A stretch of DNA of 64,000 nucleotides from Mesaphorura yosii. Taxonomy: Eukaryota; Arthropoda; Collembola; Poduromorpha; Tullbergiidae. Each line of letters opens with the position of its first letter. Position 1 is the first letter of the stretch. The stretch covers positions 1 to 64,000 of the forward strand of contig WIXG01000356.1 in the NCBI GenBank assembly GCA_009869945.1, read 5' to 3'. This document shows, piece by piece, positions 13,231-61,235 of this stretch. The position numbers and the translations under genes were made by a program. Below the pieces are notes generated by a model, which was not told the origin of the DNA, made no database searches, and worked only from the letters and a program-made list of their open reading frames with translations.

Positions 13231-15358
13231 AGTTTCCGTCATTCTCAAATTCGCATGCCTCCATATTGTACCGTCGTAATGTTCTTGACAAGCATATTAG
13301 ACAATAACGCTTCTATATTGTTGAATTTATCTTTGCAAATGCACGGGGCGCCCTAGCTTTAGCAAATATTACGAATAGGTCAAGTCAATCATGGACGAAT
13401 TGCTAGATTCACTCCAAATTCACTGAATGAATTAAAATGAACTAATGGCTGTATTTCATTTGTTGATTATAGGTAAGTCCAAGAATTTCTCTTCGACCTT
13501 AGGAATGGAAGAAAATGATAACCAATTCGGCCACATTTGAACTGCGAATCTCAAGTCACTCAAGTCAAAAGCCAACTCTTGGAAACCTACCTATCTACAG
13601 TAGTCATTGACTATAAGCCAATTTTGTACATAATGGAATTGGCGTTGTACGAAGCGCAAAATGCTTGATAGCCAATTTGACAATTGAATCTAGCGGAGAA
13701 GTCTTAAATTTTTTACTGTTCTGAATTCCATCCAGAATTAGCTTGCAGCCAGTGACACAACATGGATTGAACAGCTTACTATGCGGGACATTAAGGTGGT
13801 AGTGGCGTGTCGAGCATGTTCATGTGTAGCCATCAAGATCTTGCATTAAACATGATCGTCCAATTATCAAGCCAATTATTATGAAAAACTTGTTTTCAAT
13901 GCCCTGCTTCGAGTTCCAGTGGAAGCCTGATTCAGGTTCTCTCTGACCGAGAGCAAATGGTTGAGGCTAATAATAAATTTGTGTAAAGTGGTAAATGATG
14001 ATCATCATGATTGTTTTATTATTTCTTAATAATGACCACTTCTTACGACATTCTACCATCGTGTAGCTTCTCCAGCTGCTTCTCCGTTGGCTTCTGTGAA
14101 TCCGGCACGACGAAGGATAATGATTAGAATATCAAGCAGTTTTTTCTATCATTCTAATAATATCACTCCTCGAATGACTTTTCAATTTCCAAGCCCATGT
14201 CTTTAATTTGAATTCTTGCACTGTTCGTCCTCCAGGTACAACACGAAGATGTTTTTTTCCTTTCTCTTCGTGCGGATGCGGATTGTTACAATTCCAATCC
14301 CAGGTTCTAAAATCTGAAGAAGTTGATCTCGACTTTAATAGCCTCGTAATAAAATCTCAGCTGCTGCGACTGCTGTTAAGCTATAATCTTTTCTCTTGTT
14401 AAGGCTTGAGAATTGAACAATGGAAAATCTCAAATCTCTACGGTATGAAGTGAAGTACGATCGTTTGCCAACCAGCCAGCAGTAATAATATCCTTCTGTA
14501 ACAAGTTTGATAAGAAGGCAACAAAAGAGCACTCGAGTTCCAGCACCAGCATTTGATGTGGAATTGTGGAATGGAGATGTTCGAAATTGGTTGAGTCATG
14601 CTCCAGGAAGAGCAGGATTAAGACCAGCCAGCAGATACGCAACTCAAGAGGACGGATCACAGCGCTTGAAAATGGGATCTGTTTATTTCATTCTTTTCCG
14701 TCCTCACAGTTGTTTGCATAAAAAACAATCGGGCTGGGATCTCTTTTGTTTTGCTCGTTGCCATTCTTCGTCATCGTTATGATGATCATCTTCCTCCTTT
14801 AACTCTCTTCCCTTCTTCATTAGCCTCATCGTCATGCTCTGTTCTCAGTTCTCCATTTCCCATATGCCTTCTTTCCGGGACCTGTCGCTTTGAGACCCAG
14901 AGCGCTGAAGATATCGAGATAATGAATTTTCACACGCTGTTCTCTTCCTGCGTGCGATTGCCGCGGGTTAGCTGCGTATAGCGTATTTTTATAGAAAAAT
15001 GTTTTAAAATGCAATTCAATTTACTTTTCAATTATCTCCTTCGCGGGCACAGGCACAGATTTCCCGCCTCGACCCTTTTTGAGTACCACACTTCTGCTGC
15101 AAGTGTAGTCGGTACTAAATGGTAGGTGTGACGCTGTAACCCTTTGAACCAATTCAATTATGCTGAATAGAAAAATACTGCTGCTCTTCTGTCGTCTGGT
15201 AACTGCAGTTTATTGTCAGGCGGTTGCTGTCTGACTGTCTGCTGTCCCAGTGTCGGTTCGCACATGTTGTCACCAAGTAATGAATGGTCGGATGAATGAA
15301 CTTGTCAACTTCAAAGCTGTCAAAAATTCTGTGCGTATGTGTACAGTATTTAAATGAC

Positions 15359-15401
15359 ATGTTACAATGTTTACTGTTCCTTGTGGCTTTTAATCTTTCT
15401 G
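15359..15401 (+). CDS. Fas2: Probable first coding exon (signal peptide) of Fas2
   Basis: An ATG at 15359 opens MLQCLLFLVAFNLSG, a short N-terminus with a hydrophobic core typical of a secretory signal peptide. It is followed by a possible donor (G|GTACGG) after the first base of a codon. The next supported Fas2 exon at 24848 begins with the two bases needed to complete that codon (G+GA), giving ...NLSGLVTCQPQ, a plausible cleavage region. Phase, hydrophobicity and the expected position of a signal exon all agree. The donor is not ideal and the implied first intron is 9.4 kb, so another upstream exon could be used instead. Only a transcript would settle this. Confidence 0.55.
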
Positions 15402-24847: not shown

Positions 24848-27800
24848 GACTCGTGACTTGTCAACCGCAGCCTAATGATGCAAGACTGGTTATACCAACT
24901 GGAGACCAATTAGCGGCTGTTGGGAAGCCGAAGATGTACACGTGCGAGGCTGAGGTCATCACGCCCGAGCTGGTCAAAGATCTCAAGTGGTACTGGCCCG
25001 ATGGACAAGAAGTACTTCCTCTCAGCTTGCTGAACAGGTAAATATTTAACAGTTGAGTTTCAGCCGGCAACCTCTGACTTTGCGCATTGTAATTGTCATT
25101 CATTCGCGCGTTACGACTTAAAGCACAATCGGCAATCGTGAGAGAGTACAAATGATTACTACTGAAAGATACGCGTTATAAATAGAAGTAGAGCGGTTGT
25201 CGGATATGCAGGTAATATCCACTTCCGCTCTTTGCTGATAATCATTCCCAAAATAAGGCGTACGTCAAATTATTAGAATAAACGCGTCAGTTACGTGCAC
25301 TCGATTTCAGTGTGCACGCTGGGAGAGCAGCCCCGCGCACAGTGAAGTAGGTAGGCACAGTGAGAACCCTCATTAAGTTCCTTCCACACCGAGTTTAACT
25401 TGTTTATTCTGGCGATTATTTAATTTCGCTGGTGCCGCTGCAATTTCTCTCTCACTCGACTCAACAGACGGAGGTAGACATTACGCACTGCATCATGTCA
25501 CGAACTTCCTGGAAAAGGAGCTGTTCATTGGACATTAATTTATGAGTCAGATGACGGCGATTATAATCGTACCATACCGATCATTAAAAGTGTCACTGGT
25601 ATTCCCCGTTTCCATTTCCCTTGCCAGGCTCGGCCAGGCAGCTACCGTCTTTCGTCTTTCAGTCTGATCGTGACTCGTGACTGCAACGCAAGCAGATTTT
25701 CTCTTGCTTTCTCAGGCCAATGGCAATGTTAATGTAATGCAATAGAAATGCTAAGAATGCTTTCAACGGAACAAGGGAGGACTTTTTTTTGCATTTGGGG
25801 AATGCCAGAATGATAACATCATTACCTTCACGTCCAAGTTTCCGTCTGGCTGTCTACGCAAATGCAAATCTTAATGGTTTACTCCGAGATTGAGGACAAA
25901 CCGCCGTATCAATTTACATGGGGTCTTAATAAGCGTCGTAGTCGTGTACACGTAATCACTCAATGTCATACCGTGCAAGGCAAGCAATATCGGGTTACAA
26001 GCTTATGCTTTGGATTTCTTGTAAACGGGGAAAGTAAACTAATTAGGCTGGCGTTTACTCCAAGTCGCGATCCACAATTCGTGGATTCCGATTATTTTAC
26101 ATTTGCGCCAGCGCTGGTTAAAATAATTTGTCAACTTGCATTAATGCAAGATGGCTTTAGAGATTTACTCTTTCTGTCCTTATACAATAGAGTAATTTTT
26201 ATTTACTCGCTGTTTCTATTTCTTTTCTTGTCTTGTGAATCTTTCCAAGTGAAGAATCGTGGCCCAGGTAAACACTTATCTTCGAAGTTTGCGTGGACTA
26301 ACTGTGTGCTAGCGATTACTCTACCCGCAGAATAGAACACATAGAACACAACGGTTTCATAGTGTAGCCTCATAGCCTATAGTAGACCTGCCTATGAGAT
26401 TTAGAAATTATTTAGCTACATATTAAATCCAAAAGCCAAGTTAGTGTGAATGTGCAAATGTCACCAGCCATGAACCCTAACGCTGTGAATATTTGATATC
26501 TGCTTGACTGAATGTGAGTATGGGAGCCTTTGACTATTACCGGTGAATGTTGAGAATGATTATATTATATGAGAGAAAAATTTCATACATTTTTAAAATG
26601 TCAACAGAGAGAAAAGATTAAGTTTTCCACTTTCAACATTCGCACCTTGTTAATTCCCTTGGTTTGGCGGAGATGGCAAAGTTAAAGCCTTTAAGCCATC
26701 ATTTTTGTTATTTTCCAAGCCCGAGTTCCCTTTACTAGAGCGCCTCTTTTTCTTTTTTGATGCTTCATCCTTTATTTGTCATCTTTCCTCTCCGGGATGA
26801 CACAATGGTCCATTTGTATTTACTTTATCTCTCTGGTTTGCTTTTTAATCTTGCCTGCGTCTACAATACAACTTTGTCAAGTGGGATGTTTGTTTTCGAG
26901 GTGTATTTCCCTTCTTGTGATCTCTTATTTTATGCTTCCTCTTCCTAAACTTTGGACTCCAGTGCGACTTTCTCAAACGCGTACCGTATGTGTGAATCGA
27001 ATGAATGACTACAAACGTGAGTAAACGGTTGTCTTGATTGCTGATGTAATAATATGTTGAATGAATGCAATAAGCGAATCAACATTTAATTGCCCGTTGA
27101 GTTGTGCAGAAAGTTTTTGACAAGAGTAAAAATGTCCGCCTGAATTTTCTGAATGACTGAAAGTGAAATGTTAATGACAGATGAATCTTTGATGGTTGAA
27201 AGCGTTGAGAGAATCCTTAACTAGTGTAAATTATTGTCAACCGTGGGAAATGTGCGTGGGTGTTGCTTGAGTGGGTGAAAGTCCATTGATTCTGTAGGCC
27301 CATAAAATTTAGCATTTCTAAGACGTTTGCTGATTTTCGCAGAGTGGAATTACTGACGGAACAAGCAGGAGCTCTGAGTCTTTACTTCAGTTCTGCACAG
27401 CCTGAAGATGAGGGAACCTACCGCTGTACAGCAACTTACGCCAACACGCAATATCTGACTGCGAACTTTACACTCAAAACTTACGGTTAGCCTGGGAACC
27501 AGCGTACAAAAAATGGAAAGCCTTTAGCGTGAACTGATTTCACTTCCTTCATTGCAGTTCCGATAACCTTTGAGGACGCGCCAACAAATCAATTCGCCGT
27601 CAAGAACTCCGACTACAAAATCAAATGCCGTGTTCGAGGAGATCCACAACCAATTATTGGTTTATATATTATAATTAATATTAATTATATATTAACTATA
27701 TATTAATTATATTAATTATTGATATAGATTGGAAGAAAGATCACCGTCCCATCGTGTCAACTGTTGATGATGGTAATACGGCGGTTCATTCAGCACGTTC

Positions 27801-30800
27801 GTGTTCATTGCTTGCGTTTCGTTTGCGCTTCGTCCTCGCCTTGCGCTCTGTACTTTTCTAATTTAATTAATGAAGTAGAGTCCCGGCTCCTTCAGGCTAG
27901 GCTAAGGAATCCCCGAGAAAGGCGAGGAAAGAAAGACGAGCACAAAATGAGCAGTGTAAAGGTCTCTATCAGTTTCAGCGCGTAGCGAGGCGATGCAGTG
28001 TCTTTATCCTTCCACCGTAGCCTAGGCCTGGCTTTATTTTCTCTCAATCTTGTCTTATGTCGAAGATAATAAGATTCAATGCAGCACCGTTGCAACTAAA
28101 GAATGAGAGATTACAGCAGCAGCTCGTTCATATCTAGCAAGTAAATCTGCGTACTCATCTTCTTCTTGTAAGTAATGTTCGTGTCGACGAGGACAAGACG
28201 GGGACGAGGAAGTAATCAACTCAGTGCAGCCTGACTGGGAATCATCCGCCAAACGAGCGGAGAAAGTCCATTGCAATCAAATTATTACAAAAGAATGTGA
28301 ATTGACTTTTGACTCATTCATTCGTTCCTTTCTCCTTGCGTGCTTCCCCAGAGAGATTAATTCTGCTGCATCGAGCACCGTGACTGTAAGAGAACAGAGC
28401 GGACAAAAGAGCCGAGAGCATCTTTTTATTCTGTCCCATGGCCACGGCATGCGTCGAAGGCTGCGCTCACAATAGAAGTAGTAATGCTTATAGGAAGTGA
28501 TGCTCAATTCTTTAATAAGAATTGTATCTAATTATCTTGATTGATGACAAGTTCGTGTCAAATGAACATAAAGCACAACAAAAGAGACAAATGCAGTTTT
28601 TTTTGGAATACAACGGAATGAAAGCCAAACGCACTTTCACTTTCACGTGTATTGCGTGTACTCGACGCACTTCATTCGTTCGTTGCATGTTTCTCTCATT
28701 GTACATTTACGATTTACGTGTTTAGCAATCTAATTCTATTATGTACTTTTGTAATTACATTAAATTACAGATCATATCGTTATTGACCACGACGGAATAC
28801 TAATCAAAGGTGTACGGGAAGAAGACGAAGGTGTGTACAATTGTCGAGTGCGAGTGGTTCAGTTGGGACATGTCGAGGAGCGTGCAATCACACTGGAAGT
28901 TCAGGAGAAGCCGAGAATAACGGATCCACCACCCAAGCAAGGAGACATGGTAAGTGGTGGAGTGATTCTGGAGATTGTTGCGAACCCAGGGTGGACACGC
29001 ATTAATTTGACCGGTTCGGTTTCTACGAATAGGTTGAAGGTGGCGATTTTGAGATGCGATGTACGGGTGTCGGCAAACCACCTCCGGAAATCCTTTGGAC
29101 AAGACGAGGACAAAACCTTTACGGAATCGAAAGACATACTGTCGATAAGTACGGATTTTAGGAATCCAAGGCTAGAGCTGTGTTATTTAACCCCTTCCAC
29201 ACAAACAGGTACACCGGCACGCTCCGAATTGACAATGTTCATGTTGAGGATGAAGGCGAGTATTATTGCCGCGCGCTCAATGCTGCAGGATTTGACGAAG
29301 TCATGGCCAACATGAAGGTTATTACAAAGCCAGTCATCATGGAATTCATTAACAAAACGTAAGGACAATTATAATTAGGTTACAAGTGGACAATTGAGAT
29401 GGAGGCATTTCCGGAGGATTTATACTTTTCAACGTCTTCTAGAACCCAAGTTGAAGGCTATGTCGAGCTGAATTGCAAGGCTCGAGGAAATCCGTTGCCA
29501 ACAATTTTGTTCCAGAAGGATAGCGTCCCATTCCGCTATAGTCAGGGAGGGCAAACTGATCAAAGAATCTTCCTCGAGCAAACAGTCGAAACATTTTCAT
29601 CTCGTGAGGGTGACTTCTATCATGGCGAAGTCACATCGGCAACTTTGAAGATTAGTGATGTTCTTCGAACGGATGATGGACTTTACAACTGCATCGCTAC
29701 GAATGGGCGTGTTGAAAGTACGCTAAAATTCAATTATTGCAATAAATAGAGAGAATTCATTGTAAAATGTTACCTTTTCCCTTTGTAGCCGAACGTTTGG
29801 GACATTTGACGGTGGAATATTTGCCAACTTTCCAAAATACACCAATGAAAGAAAACTGGTCTTGGGACGCTCGTCCGGTAAGCGAGAAACCGTTTACTGA
29901 TATGTAAAAGAAGTGTCTTGAAAGACAACAGAGTAACAGACATTTCATGCCTACTGTCCAATGAAGCATTTAAAATTTGTTGTGTTCCGTAGGTCAATCT
30001 CACTTGCCTTGCTGAAGCCATACCTAATGCCACCATTAACTGGTTCTTTGTCGAAGTTCCCGAACGTGAAGTTGTTGAAAGCATCAACATCAGACGATTT
30101 GGCTACGAGTCCGTGAGCTCACTCGAGGTATATCAGTGTTCATCCGACTTCTGGCCAGATCAATGCTAAATGTCGGGCCTACTTGCAGATTCGACCAGTT
30201 GATCGTCGCATGTTTGGACACTACCGTTGCGTCGCCACCAACAAACTGGGAACATCTCAGCATACAATTTATCTTCGGGAAGGCAGACGGCCTGGACACA
30301 TTCAACAAGTTATTGTTCAATACAAGACTGCAACCAGCATTGCATTCAAAATCGTTCCACCAACTGACGATGGTGGCCTTCCGATCGATTCCATTGTTGT
30401 GCAGTACAGACATGAACGTGACACCTGGGACAATCCTCAGGTTGTCAACTGGCCAGTTGGTAAGTATTCTTTATGAAACCGAGTGCGTGCATTCTGACTA
30501 AATTGGGTATCCTTATTTCTGTAGATCAAACCCTCTTCGTTATTGAAGGCTTGGAATCGCTGAGAACTTACGCTTTCCGATTTGCGGCAAGCAGTCAGGT
30601 CGGAATTGGAGACTGGGCACAGGAGAGACTCGAACTTATGCCAAGGCAGACTGTCCCAGGTAAAGTATAAACATGGTTCTCATGCACGTGTCTCGGGCTG
30701 CAGTGTTCAACAGCGTTACAATGAATTGTTCGTTACAGAGGCACCATTTATTAGAACCGAAAGTTATCAGGGAATCGCCCACACTCCATACCCGAACCAA

Positions 30801-33430
30801 TTTGAGCTTCTCTGGACTGTTCCACCAGATAATGGAGAACGCATAGAATATTTCAAGATATCTAGGATTCCCGTAAGTTCAGTTAATCCTTTGTTGATTT
30901 GTCTTAACTTAATTCCGGGTTTCCTTTCTTAACTTCGCTTGCATACGCTTGCAGGTCAGCAATTCATCAGGCTACTGGGCAACTTATGGAAGCGTTCGAG
31001 AGGAAATTCTTCCGTATGGGGAACCACGCCATATTCTCAGGGATCTTACAGCTGGCACATACTACAAAGTCGAAATACGAGCACACAATATCATTGGAGA
31101 TAGTGAGCCGGCTGAAATTATCATAAAGACTGCTCCGAATCCTGGCGGTAAGCACTCGTAATGTCATGACCATGTATGTCGGTCTAGTGCCGAACTAAAT
31201 TGGTTAGATTTTCTGTTCCATGAGTTACTCCAGCGTAGCGTAGCGAGAAATAGATAATCCGTAAATAGCGAATCCCATCATAGTTAAATAGTCCTGTCCT
31301 GTTATCAGTGATTTTCGAAATTCGAGCAGGCAGACTTTGCGCTTTCCCAATTCTAGCTAGCTTCAATTTATTGCGAAAGTTTCGCAATGGTCAATTCTTT
31401 GCGAGTGCACAGTTGAATGGCTTTTTGCATGAAAATGCTTACGACTCATCGTTTTTGTTTTTACTGCCTTTCGTGTAGAAAGTTGTGCGATCTCACCAAA
31501 AAATAGCCTGTGAAGTCAATCTAATGTTCGATGTCTTTGCTTTCAGCGTTTGAGAATCTATTTCAGTTTTTGTTTCTTCTTTCTGATTTCTAACACAGGA
31601 GCCGGTTATCCGCGGGGCGCATCCAGTTCGTTCTCAAGCTCCGCAAACCATTTGAAAATGTTGTACCATAGTTTAGCAAAATTTCTGCTTGTGTACTTTG
31701 GCATCCGAATGCGGGTCTCAACTTAATTTATCAACTTTTCATATCCCCTATAAATGGGTGTCAGCTTTACATGCCAGTCATTCAGTCTGAGGAGAAATTA
31801 GGAGATAGGACCCATAATTTTAGAGCTTCTTAATAAGTAACAAGAAAACCCATAATTACAACTAATTCAGAGCCGGGCGATGACATTCGTGGACACACTT
31901 CTGCATTGTTCGCATTTAAAAAGAGTGCCATCGTTTCTGGTTTAATCTGATGCTCTCTGCTTCGAGGTGTGATCGCAATCGCTTTCTTCTGACTTTGTCA
32001 ATTTGTATATGCAATAATTGAAATAATATGCAATAGGTTCAATTATTGAAATTCGAATAATCTTCTAACACACAAGCAATGTTCAAGTTTGAAGACAATA
32101 ACTAATAACTTAATGACACATGGCGGCGCAACGTCGCCTCTCTCAGCTCTCTATCGTACTGTTGTATACTTCTAACCGATAAGTCAGTACATAGCTCAGG
32201 TTTGTCTGAATAAATCTTTTTCACTGTATTGTTCAAGCGAATCCCTTTTGCTCAACTCGTTCGTGAGATTTTGTCGTTGGGCAGTTGCTCAAAAATCTTT
32301 CTGCCATTTTGTGATTTCTCTGACTGCTTAACTGTATGACTTATGCTTCCGTTCGTGCTCCAATTCCATTTCAGGTAAGTGTGTCACGTACTGATGATTT
32401 CTTGGCCATTTTGCTTTCTATCCGCTTGAGTTGCTTTGTTAGTATATCTTGCAAGATGCACTTATTTTGTTGGTTATTCGGGCATCGGGCTAATTTTGGA
32501 TAAACCGGAATCAGGAGAAATTAGAGCTAAGAGCTTACACTAGTTTAGGAAAAGGCGGTCCCGGACTATGGTTTTATATTATTAGTGAGGGTTTTGGATT
32601 GGTGTTTGATAGTAACTGATTTATTTAGTAGCCAATTTATGTAACTGATTTCAACTGCACAGGTTCCATCTACGATTCAGTCGTCAGCCGGAACAAGCAA
32701 GCAGCTTTAAGTTTCCCGGTGATTATTGCACTTGCCCTGATGCTCGTGCTTCTCACAGTCATTTTGGTTGACATAACCTGTTATCGCATGAAGCAGACAG
32801 GTGAGTAGCTTCTTCGGGTATGTTTGGTTTCATTTTGCAATTATTACCTTACCCATTTCTAGGTATAATTTGGGGAGTCAGTCACTGTGGGAAGAAACGC
32901 TCGAGCCACACCAACGGAAGCGCGCATAACGGGAAGGAAAAGTAAGTTAAAGCAAGAATTTGTTTGGAGAAGAACGGTTTGGGAGCGGTAGTTCGGCATG
33001 GCGTAGTCATTTGCACGCAGTATAGAAATTTTTGTAATCATTTCGCTTTGCAAGCATCGCATGCAATTAACTTTGCTCTCTTGTTCAGTTCGATAATTTT
33101 GATGCCTTCTTCCAGAGAATCTCGACCACTGAGATCTGATGAAAGGCAGCAAGTGACTCCTGATCAAGGAAATATTTACTCAGAACCCTTTATGAATGCT
33201 GCTGACGAATTTAATGAGTGAGCTTACTTTGGTTTATGATTTGTTTCTGTCGTTTTCACTGTCATGTCTGTTTTTGCTGTTTTGTTCATTCCGCTGACAT
33301 CTTGCACTCAGTTGTACGAATGGGAAGAGATGCTATTGTAATGCTTTGCTGTGATTTTAGTGGCAGTAACGCAAACGGCAGCCGGAAAGGCGTCGCCAAC
33401 CGAACTTCGGACAACGCTACACCAGTATAA
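24848..33430 (+). CDS. Fas2: Fasciclin 2 / NCAM-type neural cell adhesion molecule
   Basis: Homophilic cell-surface adhesion molecule of the Fasciclin II/NCAM family, known from axon bundling and synapse growth. Coding exons join in phase: 24848-25037, 27343-27485, 27558-27659, 27728-27772, 28771-28949, 29033-29148, 29209-29358, 29443-29717, 29789-29877, 29993-30127, 30189-30459, 30525-30659, 30739-30872, 30955-31147, 32663-32800, 32863-32941, 33116-33217, 33361-33430. With the signal exon at 15359 the protein has 862 residues. Five Ig domains (about residues 20-515, with Y-x-C motifs such as DEGTYRC, DEGVYNC, DEGEYYC, DDGLYNC, FGHYRC) precede two FN3 domains (about 520-730), a transmembrane segment (about 748-770, FPVIIALALMLVLL) and a cytoplasmic tail. 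The tail ends in ATPV, a class I PDZ ligand comparable with the C-terminus of insect Fas2 that binds Dlg. Family assignment is firm; individual splice sites are inferred. Confidence 0.95.
25038..27342 (+). other. Fas2 intron within Ig domain 1
   Basis: A 2.3 kb intron splitting the first Ig domain after an arginine codon (AG|A). It contains a 157-codon ATG-started open frame at 25862-26335 of unknown meaning, and otherwise nothing I recognise. Confidence 0.7.
27660..27727 (+). other. Fas2 micro-intron made almost only of A and T
   Basis: This 68-base intron between two Ig2 exons contains G only at its two ends and near the acceptor, and a single C. The rest is overlapping ATTAATTATAT-type units that are nearly self-complementary. 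The flanking coding sequence joins in phase (att g|at tgg, I-D-W). Confidence 0.85.
27773..28770 (+). other. Fas2 intron within Ig domain 2
   Basis: A roughly 1 kb intron joining ...STVDD to DHIVIDHDG in phase 1. I see no exon on either strand. Confidence 0.7.
31599..31726 (+). CDS. Fas2: Alternative 3'-terminal exon of Fas2, probable GPI-anchor tail
   Basis: Inside the 1.5 kb intron between the second FN3 exon and the transmembrane exon, a pyrimidine-rich acceptor (ttctaacacag) precedes a frame that accepts the same phase-1 donor used by exon 30955-31147. It encodes about 42 residues: a small-residue run (GASSSFSSSA) that could hold a GPI attachment site, a short spacer (NHLKM), a hydrophobic stretch (LAKFLLVYFGI) and a stop at 31724-31726. 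An AATAAA at 32209 would end such a transcript. Insect Fas2 is known to exist in both transmembrane and GPI-linked forms made by alternative 3' exons, and this exon fits that arrangement. The residues RMRVST after the hydrophobic part are less typical of GPI signals. Confidence 0.5.
32209..32214 (+). terminator. Poly(A) signal AATAAA, candidate end of the Fas2 GPI transcript
   Basis: It lies about 480 bases after the stop of the alternative exon at 31599 and within an intron of the transmembrane form, as expected for a separate terminal exon. Confidence 0.4.
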
Positions 33431-34501
33431 GGAGAGCCTTCGCGCGAAAGGAGAGAGAAGCTTCGAAGTTCAAGACCATTGAAAGAAAACGAAATTAAAT
33501 CGCGTCTCATCCTCATCCTTTGAAGGAATGATCTCACGAAGAATCCTGCAATTGGCTTTTTCTTTGTTACGTGAATTCTGGCTCTTGGTCCTTACACCCA
33601 CTAGAGACTAGGTTAGACTGCCGGAACGAGCAAGTTTTGTTGATTTGTTGTTTAAGGACGTGCATTCCAGCAATGCCTCTACTTACACTTTGCTTTAGAT
33701 TTTAGGCGCAGGTATCCAATTTGTACATTAGTCATGACACAGCATAACACTAATTTCTAGTACATGATTTATGTTATGCCTTTGAATTATGTCCTGAAAC
33801 CTTCTCTATCATTGTGAAACTAGTCCAACTTGAATTCAGAACGTCCAATCAACATCAGACTCGTTAAATATGCAAGGCTTTGGGTCTAGAATGTAATGTA
33901 AAGGCAACGGTTCATGGATAAGTAGATTTTGTATTTATACCGTACATTTAAGGGATCCTATAATGTGTTTTACTGTAGGATAAGTCTACGCTAAATTACA
34001 AATGTCTCGTATTTTGTATTCGATATTTTTGTTACCTTGCTACAAGCTGTTACATGTACAAAGTGTCGAACATTTGATAGCTCTCATTAATTCAATAGCT
34101 GTTAGAATGTGTGCCAGTGAGACAAAGGAATTTGTATGATTCTTGTAGGAGAGCAATTGATGTCTGGTAAGTTAACAGGCAATATTTGTAATCTGCTTAC
34201 TGGTGTGAAACTTTCCCCACTGGAAAAAATGCGAGACTATGGATGTTTATCATTCTTAATAACGTTTACCTTCTAGCGTGTAGCCTGAGGACTGCTCGTC
34301 TTCTGCCTTATAAGTCTCTGAAAAAGATAAGGGTGAGTGGGTGTATGAATGGTTAGGTGTGCATGCTTGATTTTAAGATTGTAACAAGATACATGTATTT
34401 TGTCAAGCGTTTTGATACCAATAACTTCAAAAATTCATCAAACTGTAAAATTCTCTTAAGTAGGCTAAAACTGAAAGTAAATTATGTACTCCAATGGAAC
34501 T

Positions 34502-34507
34502 AATAAA
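34502..34507 (+). terminator. Poly(A) signal AATAAA, end of Fas2
   Basis: It follows an AT-rich 3' untranslated region of about 1.07 kb (33431 onward) with no open frame. The opposing B3GAT signal lies only about 60 bases further on. Confidence 0.6.
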
Positions 34508-34876: not shown

Positions 34877-36349
34877 TTACACTTCTAAACCAAAGTTAGA
34901 AGGCTTTTTTCCTTCTTTCTTCAGAGTCTTTTCCCGTATCAGATTGGGTGTTTCTGTTCTTGTATGCCATACTAAAACCTGCATCAATTCATTCATCGTA
35001 AATTAGTCTTGATGCGCCAGGCGGACCCTCGCGTTCAAATTCAGTAGTTAATGCAACCTACTTGAGTACAATTTTCTGCTTTAACCTCGAGCTCATCTAA
35101 TGACTTGACGAAATGCTTCAGCAATTCACTTTCTTGGTACCCCTTTTCTACTTCGAATGCAAACTTTCCATCTGGGACGCTGAGAAAGTGTTTTAAGTTG
35201 ATGGCAAATCCAGCCATGTCTAAAAAGAGAGCAACTTAATGAATTTAACGCTTGCTTTCATTATTCACTTGTCGATGATTTACCGGTAGCAAACGGTCGC
35301 TCTGGACTCCATACCGTCAGCCAACCTGTGACTTTGCCCTTTTCATTGATTCGTGGTCGCTCAACTAGGAGACCACCGACAAGCCCAACTGGCCAAACTC
35401 CGACTTTCTTAATATATCTCATCTAAATTAAGATGACATGAAAAATACCAACTGCAATACATACAGTATACCGAATTTCGAATATTTTGAGTTGCTTACT
35501 TCATCGAACACTTCTAAGGAGTACGTGTTATCGTCATCTAAGAAATAAATGACACCCTCCGGGCCATCAATACTAAGGTTGTCCCGAACCCACTGTAGTG
35601 CTGTATTTCTCTGTAAGACTCCGCGAGGCTTCGACCATCGCGGCTCCTAGGACAAATTACAGAGGAAAGAGCTTTAAGCATTATTACTCTGTACTATGTT
35701 ACAGATCAAAATGCAATTTACCTTCGACTTCAACCTCCAATTCTTAGGAGTAGCAATATTAAGGTGGGTATACTTAAGACCCGATTTAATTAGCAATTTT
35801 ATGACGAGGTCAGTCTTGTCTTCTGAATCTTCAATGATGATCCAATGCAAATTCGGTACCAATTTTAATGTGTTTGAGATTCTAGTTAATTCTGCTTTCT
35901 GTAGCTCTCTCGTGTAAGTTGGAGTAATAGCATAAATTATTGGAAGACTGTTTTCAATCAAGTAATCGTCTTCCGCATTTCCATTACATTTATGTAGTTT
36001 GTCTTTGTAGTATGAAAGCTGTAACCATATTTCACGGAAATTAGCACTGTAATGCACATGAGAACCGGATGGACAATGCCGACGTCGACTTACTTGCGTT
36101 TTTAGACTTGATATTAGCCTGTCGTTCTCGAATCTCGATTCAAGGTCGCGAACTTGTTTCAGGTATTCCGCCGACGGTGGAAGACGATAAAGGTCTGACG
36201 ACCATCCTTTACAAGAATGTTTTAGGACTCTAGTTCTAGTCAATACTCAAGTTTGTTTTTTAATTTCGAGTACCTTTCACACACCACAGAATAAACAGGA
36301 CAGTCGCAAAAATTAGGAAACCCCTCATCGTTAGCTTATTCATTGTCAT
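34877..36349 (-). CDS. Beta-1,3-glucuronosyltransferase (B3GAT / GlcAT family)
   Basis: Golgi type II membrane enzyme of glycosyltransferase family 43, which transfers glucuronic acid from UDP-GlcA to galactose. Family members finish the proteoglycan linker or the HNK-1-type epitope. Exons, 5' to 3': 36274-36349, 35722-36206, 35500-35646, 35284-35422, 35062-35219, 34877-34978; 368 residues. It starts with a short cytosolic part and a membrane anchor ([13 protein letters not shown]), then a stem, the donor motif region [22 protein letters not shown], the metal-binding DDDNTYS (about 224-230), [11 protein letters not shown]-x-x-DMAGF, GYQES and the terminal NCT[10 protein letters not shown]. 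The last motif lies on a small exon at 34877-34978; without it the frame would end early at 35041. The first intron (67 bases) is chosen by length and phase. Whether it is the GlcAT-I, -P or -S type cannot be decided here. Confidence 0.92.
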
Positions 36350-37506
36350 CGTGCTTGACTGGACCACTTGCGCTTGTCAGCTACCGTGCGTTTTCGGGTT
36401 CTCCTGTTGCAATTCACACCATTCTCAATTTCAGCATTTGGGTTCTGTGCAAGTAACGTGTAAGTTAGAGAGCGTGAGAGGAAGTTATCTGAGGTTAGCC
36501 CGAGGAGTCTCAATGGCTTACAAAACTTCGGTTTGTTACGCCTAAATCTGCTACAGGAGAGCTCTTCAGAGGATTTCAGAAATTTCTTTTCTCTGACGGA
36601 GTCGTGGTACGCCAAAACGGTTACCGGGCAAACATGTGAATCAGACTAGCGTAAGAGTTAGTGACGAAATTTAATGGGATGCACGAATTAATAACATAAT
36701 TCTCTATCTAAATAGCATTGGGTAAAAAAAACGGGTGTTTTTTCAGTCAGCAAATTGTTTGTTTTCGAGTCACCTTCTGACGAGCTCTCCTTCTATAGCA
36801 AGTTTGGGCAAGGCAAACAAAGTTTGGCGTAGCCATTGAGATTCCTCGGGTTAGCCTGTAGGTGAGTAAATTGAACTTACCCGAATTTATCTGTGTCCTG
36901 TATCATCTCTTTCTTAGCTGTCACACGACACCATTCACACGTTCGTTGTATTCCAGTCTCGCCAGTCAAGTTATTAGTTTGTTAGCTACGTGGTTCGGAA
37001 AAAATCACTCCGCATTGAGCTGGATTGTTGATCTCGGATGACGTTCACATCACGTCGCCTGGTTCTGTTGCAGAACAGGTGATGAAAGTGATGATGTGTC
37101 TATTGTTGCTTTTCAAGTTGTATACAATCGACAAATTCAATGACTTGTAAAGAATGTTGTTCAAAACCAAAGATTCGCATCCTTGCTCGTCCCTCGTCTC
37201 TTCTGTGCAGGAACGGAAGCTGATTGATTTGATCTTATGAACGAAAGAACGGAGCTAGCAGTAGCGGCGAATATCTGTTGTTGAAATCAATTCATTTTTG
37301 AAGTTCTTGAGATGTTATTGTTCGGCCAATTTCAACATTAGTTAGCAATACAGCTGGGCCGGGAAGGGAGTATTTCAAGACAGTGACAGAATTTTTGAAT
37401 CCTGCAACCATCCATCATAATCCGTAAGTGATTTTACCTGTTGCCAAAAACGGAATTCTCATTCATTAATTCTCGCCAAACTCACAATTTTTTGTGCGCG
37501 CAGGTA
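36350..37506. promoter_or_regulatory. Shared 5' region of B3GAT (-) and CSN8 (+)
   Basis: About 1.1 kb between the two start codons. It contains an untranslated first exon of CSN8 ending at a strong donor (37423|GTAAGT), spliced to an acceptor just before the CSN8 ATG (CAG at 37501-37503). It probably acts as a bidirectional promoter; I see no TATA-like element that I would call. Confidence 0.45.
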
Positions 37507-38161
37507 ATGGCACAACCCGTCGTCGTCGTACAAGACCAGACAGCGTTGTTGGAATTTCATGAATTGGAAGCCAAGCAGGCCGGAAGAGATTTTCCCGTTG
37601 AAGATTATGCAGAATTGCTTGCTCATTATTTGCTTCAGAATGATTTGTGCAACGGGAAATACTTGTGGAAACGCACTCCACCATTGTATAAGGAGCCGAC
37701 CACTGAAATCGCACACATTTGGTTAGTTGGACAGCATTTGTGGGTTAAGGACATGCCCAACTTTTACAATACAATACGGAGCTATCAGTGGACTCCAAGA
37801 ATTGCGCCAATAATGCAACAACTGTTAGGTAATAAATTGTTTCTCTCAATTGTATTATGGCAGGAGGGAGCTGCGGCTTTTGATGTAAAAACGTTTGTTC
37901 CGTTTCCGTTCCGCAGTGTCCACTCAAGAGAAAATGTGGAAACTCATCGGGACCGCTTATACATCCATCAGGCCGGGTGACGCAGCTGTCCTTCTTGGCA
38001 TTACAGAAGCGGACGTATTAGCAAAGGCACACGAACAACAATGGGCCATTGCTGATGGTTTAATTGAGCCAGTAGAGCCTGTGCCAGAAGAAGTTGAACC
38101 AAGCAGCGCAGAAGATCATTTGGGTAAATTAACATCTTTCGTCACTGTTCTAGAGAACTAA
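37507..38161 (+). CDS. CSN8: COP9 signalosome complex subunit 8
   Basis: Small PCI-type subunit of the COP9 signalosome, which removes NEDD8 from cullins and so tunes ubiquitin ligases in nucleus and cytoplasm. Two exons, 37507-37828 and 37917-38161, joined in phase 1 across an 88-base intron; 188 residues, slightly shorter than the human protein of about 209. Typical features are the helical N-terminal part (LHEL-type helices, FPVEDYAELLAHYLLQND), the segment IAHIWLVGQHLW-x-KD and the winged-helix-like C-terminal part (YTSIRPGDAAVLLGI) with an acidic linker. The ATG follows the acceptor of a 5' untranslated intron, so the start is well placed. It is divergent from B3GAT and convergent with COA6. 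Confidence 0.92.
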
Positions 38162-40466: not shown

Positions 40467-41291
40467 ATTACTGATGATGTGATCACAATGACAATGGAAT
40501 CTAAGATATCAAGAATCACGAGGGGTAGATTACATTGAGGCTGGAGGAATAATCGTATTATTATGTTTACCAAGTGTGGTGAGACCTGCAGCGTGGTTTC
40601 ACGATAATTGGAATGCAATTACTGTGTAGCCGAAGGTTGTTTGATCACAGGATCTTGTTGAAGGGGAAGGGCAACGCTTGGCTTGTGAAATTACGCCATG
40701 ATGGCCTCAATACGTCTGACACCCAAACTGGAACGAGATTAAAAATGGTGGTAAGATTGCCGTGGCATGACATGGCCGCGGTATCCTCACTCGGTTTAAG
40801 TATTAACTTACTCTAGAGTCACTCCACTTCTCTGCACGCGAGAGAGAATTGCGGATGTATCTTGGCTAAGAAGTATACTCGACGACCACCACACTGATAC
40901 TGAATGATAAGTTGTCAAAAATAGATTTTCTACGAGAGCTTTATGGGAGAAATTCCAAAAATAACTTCTCCCAAAGATCCTCTTCACTTCCGATTAGTTT
41001 GAACCATGAGAATTCAAATATCAGTCCCACGTGTGAAAGTTATTTGCGTACATGAGACAAGAGTGGGATTTGAACTTTGCCAATTCAAATCATCGTAGAT
41101 TTTTAATTTGTAATGAAGTTTACAGTTATTATTTTTGTAGTTAACGAAGACTCAATACGGCCACCTCTGAAAATCGTGAGATCGTGTTTTGACATCGACC
41201 TTCGACGTGGTGGGAAAGTGGGAATCCATTCACTATCAAGATCGTTTGGTGACAGTAACAATTTAACATTACGGAGGAAGCATTATCAACC
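40467..41291. promoter_or_regulatory. Shared 5' region of COA6 (-) and NAA30 (+)
   Basis: About 0.8 kb between two divergent start codons, presumably carrying both promoters and 5' untranslated sequence. No motif stands out. Confidence 0.4.
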
Positions 41292-42267
41292 ATGTCAGAA
41301 ACTTCAGCCACCGACGGGGTTCCTCTTCCCTATGGAGCTGCAGAGGGTAAAGAGACTGACCCTGAAATTGAAGCAGAAACTTCAGCAAGCTCGTGTCCTG
41401 GTCCCGGATCCAGCATGACGAAAACGCAGGAAGAAGAAGCTAAAGACACGTTAGACGCGATAAAGCGAATTGCCACAGAGTTACTTAATGGAGAAGTCGG
41501 AAATATCGCCAGTACAATCGAGAAATTGCAACTTGACAGCGGCGACCGTCAAAAGGACAGTATTACAAATGGGCCTCCAACGGCAACAATTCCTGACACG
41601 ATTACCCAACATGAAGCTGAAAATACCAATATTCAGTACATTTCTTATGAGTCCGAGCTACAAATGCCCAGTATAATGAAGTTGATCCAGAAGGATTTAT
41701 CAGAACCCTACTCGATTTACACATATCGTTACTTTATTCATAATTGGCCGAAATTGTGCTTCCTGGCAATTGACACCGATAGAAGCGACATGGTGGTTGG
41801 TGCAATTGTGTGCAAACTTGACATTCACAAGCAGAGCAATCGTAGAGGTTACATTGCAATGCTTGCTGTTGATGAAGCTTATCGTCGCAAAAAGATAGGT
41901 AAGTGACCCGGCCAGATAAAACATTGAAGCTTCGTTTTCGTTTCAATGCAGGCTTCTGATCGACCATATTACACGGTCTCCTTGCAGGCTCTAGTCTTGT
42001 CCTTCGTTCAATTCGTGCCATGGCGGTGGAAGATGCTGATGAGGTAAGTTCAAATTGTTCCGTCATACATCTTATTGGCAGGACGTACGCAGACAGGGAA
42101 TGCTAATCACTTTCATTCATTTATCGTAGATTGTCCTTGAAACTGAGATAACGAACAAATCCGCCTTGCGATTATATGAAAACTTGGGATTTGTGCGAGA
42201 CAAGAGACTATTCCGATACTACTTGAATGGTGTGGATGCACTTCGACTAAAATTATGGCTGAAGTGA
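41292..42267 (+). CDS. NAA30: N-alpha-acetyltransferase 30, catalytic subunit of NatC
   Basis: GNAT-fold enzyme that acetylates the N-terminal methionine of nascent proteins starting Met-hydrophobic, at the ribosome. Exons 41292-41898, 41988-42043 and 42130-42267 give 266 residues. The first 115 or so are low-complexity and acidic, as in other NAA30 proteins. The GNAT domain follows: [49 protein letters not shown] (written here in parts: the acetyl-CoA loop is RRKKIGS), [22 protein letters not shown] and [17 protein letters not shown] at the C-terminus. The ATG (context accATGt) begins the only long frame. The 3' end overlaps the antisense ESF1 transcript. Confidence 0.94.
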
Positions 42268-57285: not shown

Positions 57286-59601
57286 TCAAGATGCATCTGA
57301 TTTGAGCCACCATTTATTTTCAGGAAAGTCTACTTTGTCGAACACGTAACGTGCCTTGAAGGAAGGAAACAGTCCCATCTACAAAAGAAAACCATACCGT
57401 TTAGAATCTTATGAAGAAGCTGAAAAGTAGAAATACTTAAAAGTTTGCTTACGCGATTAGTTCGCCGATTAGTTCCCTTCGACATACCATTCCAATGATT
57501 ACCAGCCAGTCCAATCAAATCTCCAGTTTTTAGCTCAATTTCATTGTTGTTTCGAGGCTCGTGATCTTCCACTGCAACTTGATTAACACCAATTCCCCCA
57601 CCATAATAATAAACATCGTCTAGCGAGACGAATCTTTCCGACGCATCAGCATGGCGAGCTTGTATCAATTCATAAGCTAATCGGCAAACCTAAATCAACA
57701 ATTGCGAACACGTTTAATAAGATATTCTAAACTTTAAACTAAAGCTGGTAGCAGCATCTTACCTGAGAAGAAAAGGTACAAATGACTAAATCACACTCAG
57801 CTAACAAGAGGACATCTTGAATTATTCCGACGAGACCATTATATCGTTGCGACACCGATGCAGACTGAGCAACGCTCTTATCACCAAGCACTTCCCAGCC
57901 TTCAGATCCGTATCTATTGTAAACCATGTCACAGTTGATTGAGTTGAGGAGATTGTTTCTAACCTACACGCTAGATTAATATTAACATCGATCGAACGTA
58001 CGTCCTCATTCCTTCATTAATAACTCCAGGATCGTCTGAAGCTATGAACACTCGTTTTTTGACTTCAGTTCCTTGAACATGCTTCAGAATATCAAAATAC
58101 TCTTGTGCGTGGTCCATGTAGTCTTTCAACGGATGGAAGGAGGCTTCGGTTCCAATTTTGTCGGTCCGACGGACGTGTATTCTGTTGAAGGATTCACTTG
58201 CTAATGTTAGTTCACGCTCAATTCATTTTGGATCATTTATTGCAAATTGCTTACCCAACAATCGGAGAATTACTGTGGAATCCCAACTTCTCCCTACTCT
58301 CATCAATGAGCTTTTGTGTTTGCGGCTGAAGTCGTAACAAGTAGATCATAAACTGGCCAACCCACCAAATATGTGGTTCTCCGTGACTGTTTTCGAGTCT
58401 GTCGCCTATATCAGCGGGAATGGCTACCGGCAGAAATGGCGGTCTCGGTTTCAAGAAGTCGACGATTGGTAATTGTATCACTTGAGCATCTGTTTTTCCA
58501 GCTACGTGCACAGAAGACAGATAAATATAGTCAAATGTTGCCACACATGCTTACAATGACTCACAGGATCCCAAGCGTATACTTACTTGCCCAGTCAGCT
58601 CTGGATCTTCCATTTTGTTTTTGACAGGTATCACTTAAAGGTAAGAAAACGTTTTCCCAGCCCTTTCTATTATACCTCCAACCTTTTGATTCCAACACTA
58701 ATGTTCGGGAGGTTGCGTATGCCATAATCAAGCAATAGCACACATGATGAACTTGACATCCGAAACCGCAACCTGGTGGGTATGAAGAATTTTCGTCAGT
58801 ATCAGTATCTAAATCTGTGATCTGTGGGATAGAGTACAGACTAATTACCTTTGTTTAGAGTACAGACTAATTTTTTCGCCGTATCACAGTCGTTGGGATT
58901 TTGTAGTTCATGTATGCGATTTTGGACAAGTTTGGACAGCGCGTCTGCTTCTCTTTGTCGAGCCGGTTCATAACCATCCTGTTGCCTTAAAGTTATTATG
59001 TGAGCCCTCAGATGCCTGCAATATTGACAAAAAAGCAATTAAATGTAATTCAATAATTCTTTCGGGAATGAGAATGAATCACGTACTTGTACACTTCTTC
59101 TATTTGCTTCATGTCTGTCTCGCCAATGTTCAAATTTTTGGACCTCACATTATACCAGAATTCTTTAAGATCCAGCTCAAGTAATCTCCTTGTTTTCTCA
59201 TATACAGTGGACGGTTCACCATTGTTGTGCGGCTGAATCGACTTGTCGTCTTTATTTAAGCTGGCTAGTAAGTCTGGTGGTAGGAGATCATTGCTCGAGC
59301 TTCTATCCCCCAAATCTCCGTCCTTGTTCTTGTTGGAGCTTATATAATGTGAAATGATTTTCTTCATTTCAATGTTATTATCCTTCAGAGCTTGGAACTC
59401 TCTGAACGCGTCGTCAAGTCTTCTCAGAAGCTCGGCACTATCTGCTATCGACTCAGAAGCGCCACCGCCCGTGGAGGGTAAATACCGGTTGTTTTGAACA
59501 GACGCCACATTTGGATACAATGATGTGATGCCCATCACCATAAACCAGAGAACAACCACAAAGCAAAATACTTTTGCAAAAAATACTGGCGACACCATCA
59601 T
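57286..59601 (-). CDS. FUT8: Alpha-1,6-fucosyltransferase (core fucosyltransferase)
   Basis: Golgi type II enzyme that adds fucose from GDP-fucose to the innermost GlcNAc of N-glycans. Eight exons, 5' to 3': 59087-59601, 58849-59015, 58587-58772, 58255-58501, 58002-58181, 57763-57913, 57453-57689, 57286-57378; all phases fit, 591 residues (human 575). A short cytosolic end and membrane anchor (AKVFCFVVVLWFMVMGI, about residues 9-26) precede a coiled stem, LRQQDGYEPARQREADALS, a cysteine-containing CGFGCQVHH region, the GDP-fucose motif IHVRRTDKIGTEA, FIASDDPGV, LVICTFSSQVCRLAYE, and a C-terminal SH3 domain (KTGDLIGLAGNHWNGMSKGTN, GLFPSFKARYVF). The first ATG is a tandem pair (ATGATG) at 59601. 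A duplicated segment straddles the donor of exon 2. Confidence 0.95.
58830..58872. repeat. Tandem microduplication across the FUT8 exon 2 donor
   Basis: The 17-base segment TAGAGTACAGACTAATT occurs at 58830-58846 and again at 58856-58872, 26 bases apart. One copy is coding sequence of FUT8 exon 2 and the other is the start of the following intron; the splice donor lies between them. Confidence 0.8.
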
Positions 59602-61235
59602 GACAGTTGCCTTGAGTGGGAGGGTTTTTAGTTCATCCAGAAACAACGAAGTATGAACATGATTCTGAGGAATCGAAGAAACGTCCCTAGTATTTGAACT
59701 AGTAGACTTCACAAGGGAATACTCCTTCAGAGAATAGGGCCACGTAAACCCACTATTCCATTAATCATTGCACTGGAACTGCAAGCTGCGAAAGTACTTG
59801 CATAACGTGCAGCCGAATTTTCCTCTAAAAAAAACAAATCAAACGCGCATCTTTAGTATTCACATGAACCGCCACTTCATGCTAGACAAGTGTCAATAAG
59901 GAACTACTCCTTTATAAAAAGTGAACTCGGACTTAGAGAGAGGTCAGATCGTTAAATGGTATATTAAGAACAGGATGTAATGTAGGTGACAGGATCTTAA
60001 TTACCTTCACGGCTTTTGTGCGCAGAACGACAAAAAACAATGTTGATGTAATACAAATTGGGTTCCGATCTTGTCTACTTATGGTCCGAATCCATCCAAT
60101 CACGAATGACGGTTAAGGCTATAATGAAGAATCGTATTGTCCGTCATATGAGATCTGATGGATCCTGGTCAGTGGTCACCGCTGTTCAATTAATCAAAAC
60201 TAACTTCACTTTCCATAATTCATTTTGCGGTGTATTTCTTAGGCGTGCACCTTACGTGAGTTCGCGAGACGGTATTTAAGCGTAGTTTTCCGATTCAGTC
60301 AATTCTTGCTGCCAGAATATGTGGATTGAAATTAAGCTGATCCCTTCTTAAAAGTATTTGCGGGCTTGTGTTCTTCGCAAATATGTGTTGCATGTTCTTT
60401 ACGATGGCAGATTCCTATTGCTTGCTGCTGCGGTGGACAGATAAACTCCAGCAAGTCTAAATCCACAGCTGAGTCGATTTAGTTCATTTTTGACACTTTC
60501 AACTTTAAATGGGATAATACGCGATAAATACCTCGCGAATTTCGATTCAGATGTACAACAGTGCAGCACAGCCTTCACTTCTGTTTCTGTATTTGCCATC
60601 AGGATTCGAGATTCGAGACAAATATACACGGTGATGATTTGATGACATAACATGCCTCTGAGCGGAGCTCATTCGAATGTTCACTACGTTGGCCTTGGCC
60701 TGTGTATAAAGTAGTAAAAAAAAAGCAGTGCTTCGAGCTGGTTTGGTTTGACAACTCAGTTAACTTTAGCGGAACTTTAACTTCTGACTCACGACTCACT
60801 CGGTGTTAAACATCGGGAAGGGGTGACTGCATTTACCGGCTTCGACTGATGCAATTTTCTCATCGGCTAAACGGCAGGTGTGTGCTACTTTATTTGCTAA
60901 CATTTATTGCAGCGAGGAAACATAGGCTTCATCTGCAAAATACCACTACAATTATTTTTGCACTTTGCAGGCAGTCGAATTGTGGAAAAAGCTAAAGTAC
61001 AACTGTCAGCGGCTCGCCACTGTATTCTATTCGCTGCCGTAAGTGTCAAGTGTCCTATTAGCTACTTTTCAAATTATTGATTGATAATGATTTGTGAACC
61101 AATATTGTTCACCCAGTCTAATCTAACCACACGACGCTTGACTTGACAGGTGAAGGAAGAAAGCATAACCAGGAAACTACTGTCCACTAAGATATTGGGG
61201 CGACCCTACGCAATTTGCGGCGACTGTCATCCTAA
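59602..61235. promoter_or_regulatory. Shared 5' region of FUT8 (-) and ACBD3 (+)
   Basis: About 1.6 kb between divergent start codons. On the ACBD3 side an untranslated exon appears to end at 61036 (gctgcc|GTAAGT) and to join an acceptor at 61148-61150 (cttgacag) before the ATG. A plus-strand frame at 60058-60279 has no ATG and no recognisable product. Confidence 0.4.

Follow-up and report, generated by a model that had tools for sequence, protein, structure and literature searches.

The window analysed here, a 64-kb stretch of DNA from Mesaphorura yosii, carries on its forward strand a gene of the Fas2/NCAM type. The gene model has 18 exons (24848–33430) that GT-AG splicing joins into a single open frame; its 847-residue product carries, in order, five Ig and two FN3 domains, a transmembrane (TM) segment and a cytoplasmic tail (Table 1). 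Pfam matched Ig_3 in five stretches of the product and fn3 in two, giving the five-Ig-then-two-FN3 order of the Fas2/NCAM family, and the TM exon and the three cytoplasmic exons run in frame to the stop, as the 3' exons of that family do. When the product was compared with PDB by sequence, the lowest E-values were those of Robo2 (6e-35) and Dscam, followed by NCAM2 (1.2e-34); the chains collinear with the ectodomain were NCAM2 2jll, over residues 299–717, and NCAM1 1qz1, over residues 15–298. Near 29159 and 29361 the ectodomain seems to be interrupted by in-frame stops, but these lie inside short introns and are gone after GT-AG splicing. Both the gene type and the exon coordinates proposed in an earlier note on this DNA hold. 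Calling the gene at 24848–33430 Fas2 appears right as a family call; the name itself, as against other NCAM-type genes, is our assumption from the domain order and a general resemblance.

Among the best candidates scored, a 170-residue C-terminal query against the 93-Mb, 1,127-contig genome matched the window alone, the stretch 31000–33450 likewise matched only itself, and neither a paralogue nor a second haplotype of Fas2 was seen in either search. A pattern search of viral contigs for relatives gave nine matches, none of them encoding a relative. Upstream of the modelled exons, a frame with weak support may be the signal-peptide exon; six ATG frames that combine a hydrophobic stretch with a phase-1 donor were listed, and among them this one ranks second in hydropathy and first in donor. 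At the other end of the gene, the TM form terminates in ...NATPV (33413–33427, +), which by the rule for PDZ ligands fits class I, as expected for a Dlg-binding Fas2.

Table 1. Features of the Fas2 gene and of the intron before its transmembrane exon.
Feature	Position	Strand	Basis
Putative Fas2 signal-peptide exon	15359..15401	+	MLQCLLFLVAFNLS and G/GA junction; weak
14 shared ectodomain exons (five Ig, two FN3, one open frame)	24848..31147	+	GT-AG model, Pfam, PDB
5' splice site and read-through frame, GKHS then TAA at 31159–31161	31148..31161	+	Sequence
Intron preceding the TM exon, 1,515 nt	31148..32662	+	Gene model
Competing acceptor, 32 nt upstream of 31599, reading VFVSSF then stop	31567..31567	+	Matrix scores
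Candidate alternative terminal exon, GAGYPRGASSSFSSSANHLKMLYHSLAKFLLVYFGIRMRVST then stop at 31724–31726	31599..31726	+	Gene model, acceptor and GPI-like scores
Putative short-form poly(A) signal AATAAA, then tctttttCActgTATTGTTC	32209..32214	+	Sequence
Zero-length-exon site, acceptor TTTCAG abutting donor GTAAGT	32375..32380	+	Matrix scores
TM exon, phase-1 start	32663..32800	+	Gene model; acceptor below 31599 in both matrices
Three cytoplasmic exons, end ...DNATPV then stop	32863..33430	+	Gene model
Putative poly(A) signal AATAAA, TM form	34502..34507	+	Inference

The intron before the TM exon is long for this gene, in which 12 of the 16 other introns measure 60–115 nt, two 143 and 174 nt, and two 998 and 2,305 nt. 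Its donor, after 31147, is in phase 1 and, left unspliced, reads GGT AAG CAC TCG TAA, so that the protein would end in GKHS without a hydrophobic tail. A search of 31100–32700 against Rfam gave no family at its gathering score, mir-9428 appearing only below threshold (20.5 bits vs. 81). Within the intron, an acceptor at 31599 (...TTTCTGATTTCTAACACAG/GAGCC) opens a frame of 42 residues to a TAA, and a product joined there is predicted to stop ahead of the TM exon, without a TM or cytoplasmic domain.

The earlier note had taken this stretch for a hidden exon encoding a GPI-anchored form of Fas2, pointing to a pyrimidine-rich acceptor, an open frame matching the phase-1 donor, a small-residue run followed by a hydrophobic stretch, a stop and the AATAAA at 32209. 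The acceptor, open frame, stop and AATAAA are all present in the sequence as described. The phase match, though real, is uninformative, because any acceptor sets its own frame and a terminal exon is free to begin at whichever AG is used. The AATAAA is likewise present but without weight, because the + strand of the window holds 53 copies of the hexamer, so that about 1.25 are expected by chance per 1,515 nt; CA and TATTGTT follow it downstream. The features that carry weight are the acceptor, the Ser/Ala run and the hydrophobic tail.

Acceptors were scored with two matrices, one trained on the gene's own 18 sites, for which leave-one-out scores are used, and an independent one from 47 distinct mined (putative) acceptors of this genome, minus those identical to Fas2 sites. 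The matrix was replaced once during the analysis and the replacement favoured 31599; both versions are given. By the Fas2 matrix, 31599 scored 3.96, a value that 10 of the 18 leave-one-out scores exceed and that places it 11th of the intron's AGs. By the independent matrix it scored 8.19, second of 81 intron AGs and higher than 16 of the gene's 18 sites; among 20,151 AGs this is the 98.75th percentile. Both matrices placed it above the acceptor of the TM exon at 32663 (3.96 vs. 1.87 leave-one-out by the Fas2 matrix, 8.19 vs. 3.44 by the independent matrix).

Likeness to a GPI signal was judged by a home-made rule rather than a validated predictor, combining small residues at omega and omega+2, a spacer and the mean hydropathy of the tail, to which we added the best 11-residue hydropathy and the Gly/Ala/Ser run. 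The first version permitted Pro at omega+1; it was altered after the result had been seen and the test was rerun, and both versions are given. The candidate tail consists of a Ser/Ala cleavage region, the stretch LAKFLLVYFGI with its internal Lys, and a terminal RMRVST. With the first scoring it reached 0.93, lower than any of seven human GPI tails (1.11–3.05), and ranked 14th of the frames that open behind an AG in this intron; its 11-residue hydropathy of 1.99 fell inside the range of the same human tails (1.53–2.96, n = 7). With the revised scoring it reached 1.03, with the same hydropathy of 1.99, placing it at the low end of six tails from the same genome (0.97–2.18 and 1.91–2.89, respectively) whose GPI status was assigned from their family and hydrophobic end. 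A Gly/Ala/Ser run of at least 5 was found in five of these six, and two had charged ends (SLRR and LRERHT). The six were drawn from 5 QVR matches and 8 contigs with alkaline phosphatase matches, of which 3 and 6, respectively, were read (L027, L028 and contigs C238 and C397 being left out) and 2 and 4 were kept, the rule being a hydrophobic end in the same frame, which L025, L035 and L039 lacked. The candidate GPI tail thus scored appears marginal. A divergent, marginal tail is still compatible with a GPI signal, because PredGPI and NetGPI call only 25% and 34%, respectively, of 32 fly Dpr/DIP proteins GPI-anchored, many of the misses being treated as false negatives, and because the C-termini of this GPI kind cannot be aligned, according to the available part of that study (PMC10863630).

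Codon usage does not support coding of 31599–31726, and amounts to weak evidence against it or to none. The stretch scored –0.068, below all 18 Fas2 exons (the lowest, –0.014, being the TM exon). Compared with 2,831 random open stretches it stood at the 38th percentile, and of its own three forward frames it ranked second. The six same-genome tails assigned as GPI signals ranged from –0.067 to 0.072, with one as low as the candidate.

We then asked how often the pattern arises in stretches of 1,515 nt drawn at random from this genome (n = 297 with the independent matrix, n = 311 with the Fas2 matrix) and in 500 dinucleotide shuffles of the intron (Fas2 matrix). Overall, 1–9% of the random stretches equalled or exceeded the candidate, the figure varying with the matrix, and 3–28% qualified at looser thresholds. 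With the independent matrix, an acceptor as strong as 31599 followed by an open frame of 15–80 codons was found in 116 of 297 stretches, and the combination of acceptor, GPI-like score and 11-residue hydropathy at the candidate's values in 3 of 297, rising to 36 of 297 when an acceptor of at least 5 was accepted. When all three thresholds were relaxed (acceptor at least 5, score at least 0.8, hydropathy at least 1.5), 82 of 297 stretches qualified, falling to 28 with a small-residue run of at least 5 and to 9 with an AATAAA as well. With the Fas2 matrix, 27 of 311 stretches had the triple at the candidate's values, as did 120 of 500 shuffles; with the acceptor lowered to at least 2 the counts were 51 of 311 and 186 of 500, and relaxed thresholds with a small-residue run of at least 6 gave 10 of 311 and 24 of 500. 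The cruder test with which the analysis began found the pattern in 1,566 of 3,847 stretches and, when an AATAAA was also required, in 550. The rarest combination was acceptor, hydropathy and a run with Gly, Ala or Ser at 9 of 10 positions (2 of 311 stretches, 0 of 500 shuffles; Fas2 matrix), a rarity that is partly post hoc because the run had been spotted before testing. The small-residue run and hydrophobic stretch of the earlier note are there, and the run in that dense form is rare, but the tail is marginal and the looser pattern common. Taken together, the scores put the evidence for the exon no more than moderately above chance; this much of the proposed identity as the GPI-form exon stands, on the acceptor and tail, against a marginal GPI signal and unsupportive codon usage.

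That insect Fas2 is made in TM and GPI-linked forms, as the earlier note had stated, is borne out by the available portions of four papers (PMC12847815, PMC4833865, PMC3405054 and PMC2746287), whereas that of PMC10635556 contains nothing on Fas2 isoforms. The first of these also gives isoform primers for fly FasII-A and FasII-C (PMC12847815). From the primers, the fly junction can be compared with that of M. yosii. The fly reading frame is presumably the one that gives T-R-G-I-D-V at the FasII-A junction. Reverse-complemented, the FasII-A primer reads CGACACGAG/GAATTGACGT, or T-R-G-I-D-V, a phase-1 junction as in M. yosii, and the FasII-C primer reads CACGAG/GTGAGTCCGATTC, compared with CACGAG/GAATTGACGT for FasII-A (PMC12847815). 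Because GTGAGT, a donor consensus, follows the exon end directly, the primers suggest that fly FasII-C continues through the unused donor of exon 7. The same source, in its available part, calls the GPI part of fly Fas2 "exon 8", which is at odds with plain donor read-through, and leaves unsettled why RNAi against exon 8 also lowered FasII-A (PMC12847815).

In Drosophila FasII-C (Fas2-RB), as in the candidate, an alternative C-terminus replaces the TM exon, at a phase-1 junction that follows the second FN3 domain and appears to be the same in both. The two differ in that the fly form apparently arises by donor read-through, as a composite terminal exon, while in M. yosii read-through ends at once in GKHS. 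The claim that the exon is conserved in position may thus be half right: the phase-1 junction is shared, but the fly primers point to a different way of using it. Because donor read-through gives GKHS and a stop, a GPI form in M. yosii, if it exists, needs a spliced terminal exon. Vertebrate NCAM-120 has such an exon, which follows the last ectodomain exon, precedes the TM exon and has its own poly(A) site. The candidate, if it is used, would share this layout with the GPI-linked NCAM-120. At the level of protein forms it can also be likened to Manduca sexta Fas II, for which TM and GPI-linked forms of one protein were distinguished with isoform-specific antibodies (PMC2746287, available part). 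Intronic polyadenylation isoforms in a human immune-cell atlas, in which an intronic poly(A) signal changes the C-terminus, offer a parallel without direct relation (PMC5928244, available part).

Our leading reading, held tentatively and at slightly under even probability, is that 31599–31726 is an alternative last exon of Fas2 encoding a GPI-anchored form. It is favoured by the length of the intron and its place, where a GPI exon is expected in a Fas2-type gene, by an acceptor stronger than that of the TM exon, by the rarity of the stricter combinations, by a tail within the range of the same-genome tails and by the known TM and GPI forms of insect Fas2. Counting against it are the codon usage, the marginal tail, the choice of comparison tails by their hydrophobic end, the acceptor rank and chance rates by the Fas2 matrix, the looser-threshold rates and the competing acceptor at 31567. 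From the gene structure, the open frame and the two acceptor sequences seen in the DNA, we infer how the exon would be used, polyadenylated and translated into a GPI-attached protein. The spliceosome would join the phase-1 donor at 31147 to 31599 and the transcript would be cut after the AATAAA at 32209. The protein would then end in the Ser/Ala-rich cleavage region and the short hydrophobic tail, which GPI transamidase would exchange for the lipid anchor, the likely omega site being FSS^SA. Joining 31147 to 32663 instead would give the TM/cytoplasmic form. The switch would thus be a choice between the acceptors 31599, the stronger by both matrices, and 32663, together with the poly(A) signal at 32209, with soluble forms arising from the competing AG at 31567 or from read-through.

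A possible explanation, to which we give appreciable though lower credence, is that 31599 is a decoy acceptor and the open frame behind it a product of chance, the intron being an ordinary one, with Fas2 made only as a TM form or its GPI exon located elsewhere. Pyrimidine-rich DNA tends toward Ser/Phe/Leu-rich frames that mimic GPI tails, codon usage in the stretch is not coding-like, the AATAAA and the phase match are without weight, and other such frames occur within the same intron. The chance frequencies point the same way for the looser pattern (9–82 of 297 random stretches), the crudest score (1,566 of 3,847) and the Fas2-matrix triple in shuffles (120 of 500), but not for the combination with the dense Gly/Ala/Ser run, rare in both controls even though it was noticed beforehand; nor does an ordinary intron account for one that is both long and at the position expected for a GPI exon.

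Alternatively, the intron might yield a soluble Fas2 without an anchor, either through an unspliced donor at 31147 or through joining to an acceptor such as 31567, the transcript being polyadenylated at 32209. Read-through meets a stop almost immediately, and 31567 nearly equals 31599 by the independent matrix (8.09 vs. 8.19). Fly FasII-B, described in the available part of its source as having neither a clear TM domain nor a GPI anchor, provides a precedent (PMC12847815). We nevertheless regard this outcome as improbable, since 31567 is weak by the Fas2 matrix (1.02 vs. 3.96 for 31599) and there is no specific sign of the 31147 donor being skipped. Less probable again is a GPI exon elsewhere in this intron, in a frame that opens at 31309, 31330 or 31357 and closes with ...NAYDSSFLFLLPFV. 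There, 31357 is the strongest acceptor of the intron by the Fas2 matrix (8.4), 31309 scores 7.14 by the independent matrix and the GPI-like score of 1.17 slightly exceeds the candidate's 1.03, but the hydrophobic end spans only about 10 residues (11-residue hydropathy 1.57), small residues number 4 of 10 and no AATAAA lies within 700 nt. The frames at 31547, 31924, 32285 and 32380 were rejected as GPI exons on account of short tails or weak acceptors, though several exceeded the candidate in tail hydropathy.

If 31599–31726 is indeed the GPI-form exon, it would plausibly be an ordinary feature of the Fas2 gene family with a possible twist in RNA processing. A GPI-anchored Fas2 form, easily missed by annotation, would be added in an animal with a compact genome, and the fly and M. 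yosii would seem to differ in the RNA-processing steps that lead to one and the same anchor switch. Missing such a form would hide part of Fas2 function, because the TM and GPI forms reportedly differ in place and role: the available parts of two papers place GPI forms mainly in glia (PMC13015403) and find Fas2-RB dominant in renal tubules (PMC4833865). If the reading is false, the case is a caution that frames behind pyrimidine-rich acceptors easily mimic GPI tails. A further step, rather unlikely in our estimate, is that the C-terminal switch was rewired with its protein outcome kept, the GPI form being made through a skipped, spliced terminal exon, as in NCAM-120, rather than through fly-like donor read-through; the CAG/GTAAGT at 32375, about 160 nt past the AATAAA, could contribute.

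At this last site an acceptor directly abuts a donor. The donor half scored 11.7, above the leave-one-out maximum of 10.2 for the 17 true Fas2 donors, and the acceptor half was ordinary to weak (3.63 vs. 4.4–13.3 for true acceptors). With thresholds taken from the 32375 site itself, only 2 of 1,271 AGGT sites in 528,000 scanned bases reached both scores, namely 32375 and 13473. Abutting acceptor–donor sites of this kind are called "ratchet-like". As a matter of speculation, the CAG/GTAAGT could be a U1-binding site close to the poly(A) signal, or a zero-length exon. A phase-keeping cassette exon ending at a donor after 32374 was rejected, there being no AG between the last in-frame stop (32329–32331) and the site. 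The second abutting site, ATTATAG/GTAAGT at 13473, is on the same strand as Fas2 (+), upstream of the putative signal-peptide exon, and may be outside the gene.

Among the neighbours, the product of the gene convergent with Fas2 (35677–36246, –) belongs to glycosyltransferase family 43 (Pfam, 5e-14), which includes the glucuronyltransferases making the HNK-1 epitope, which NCAM carries in vertebrates. A second gene of glycosyltransferase type in the window is an open frame at 59053–59760 (–) matching the N-terminal and catalytic domain of FUT8 (Pfam, 1.4e-9). Open frames at 41259–41903 (+) and 37432–37977 (+) match a GNAT acetyltransferase and the CSN8/PSMD8/EIF3K family, respectively (Pfam).
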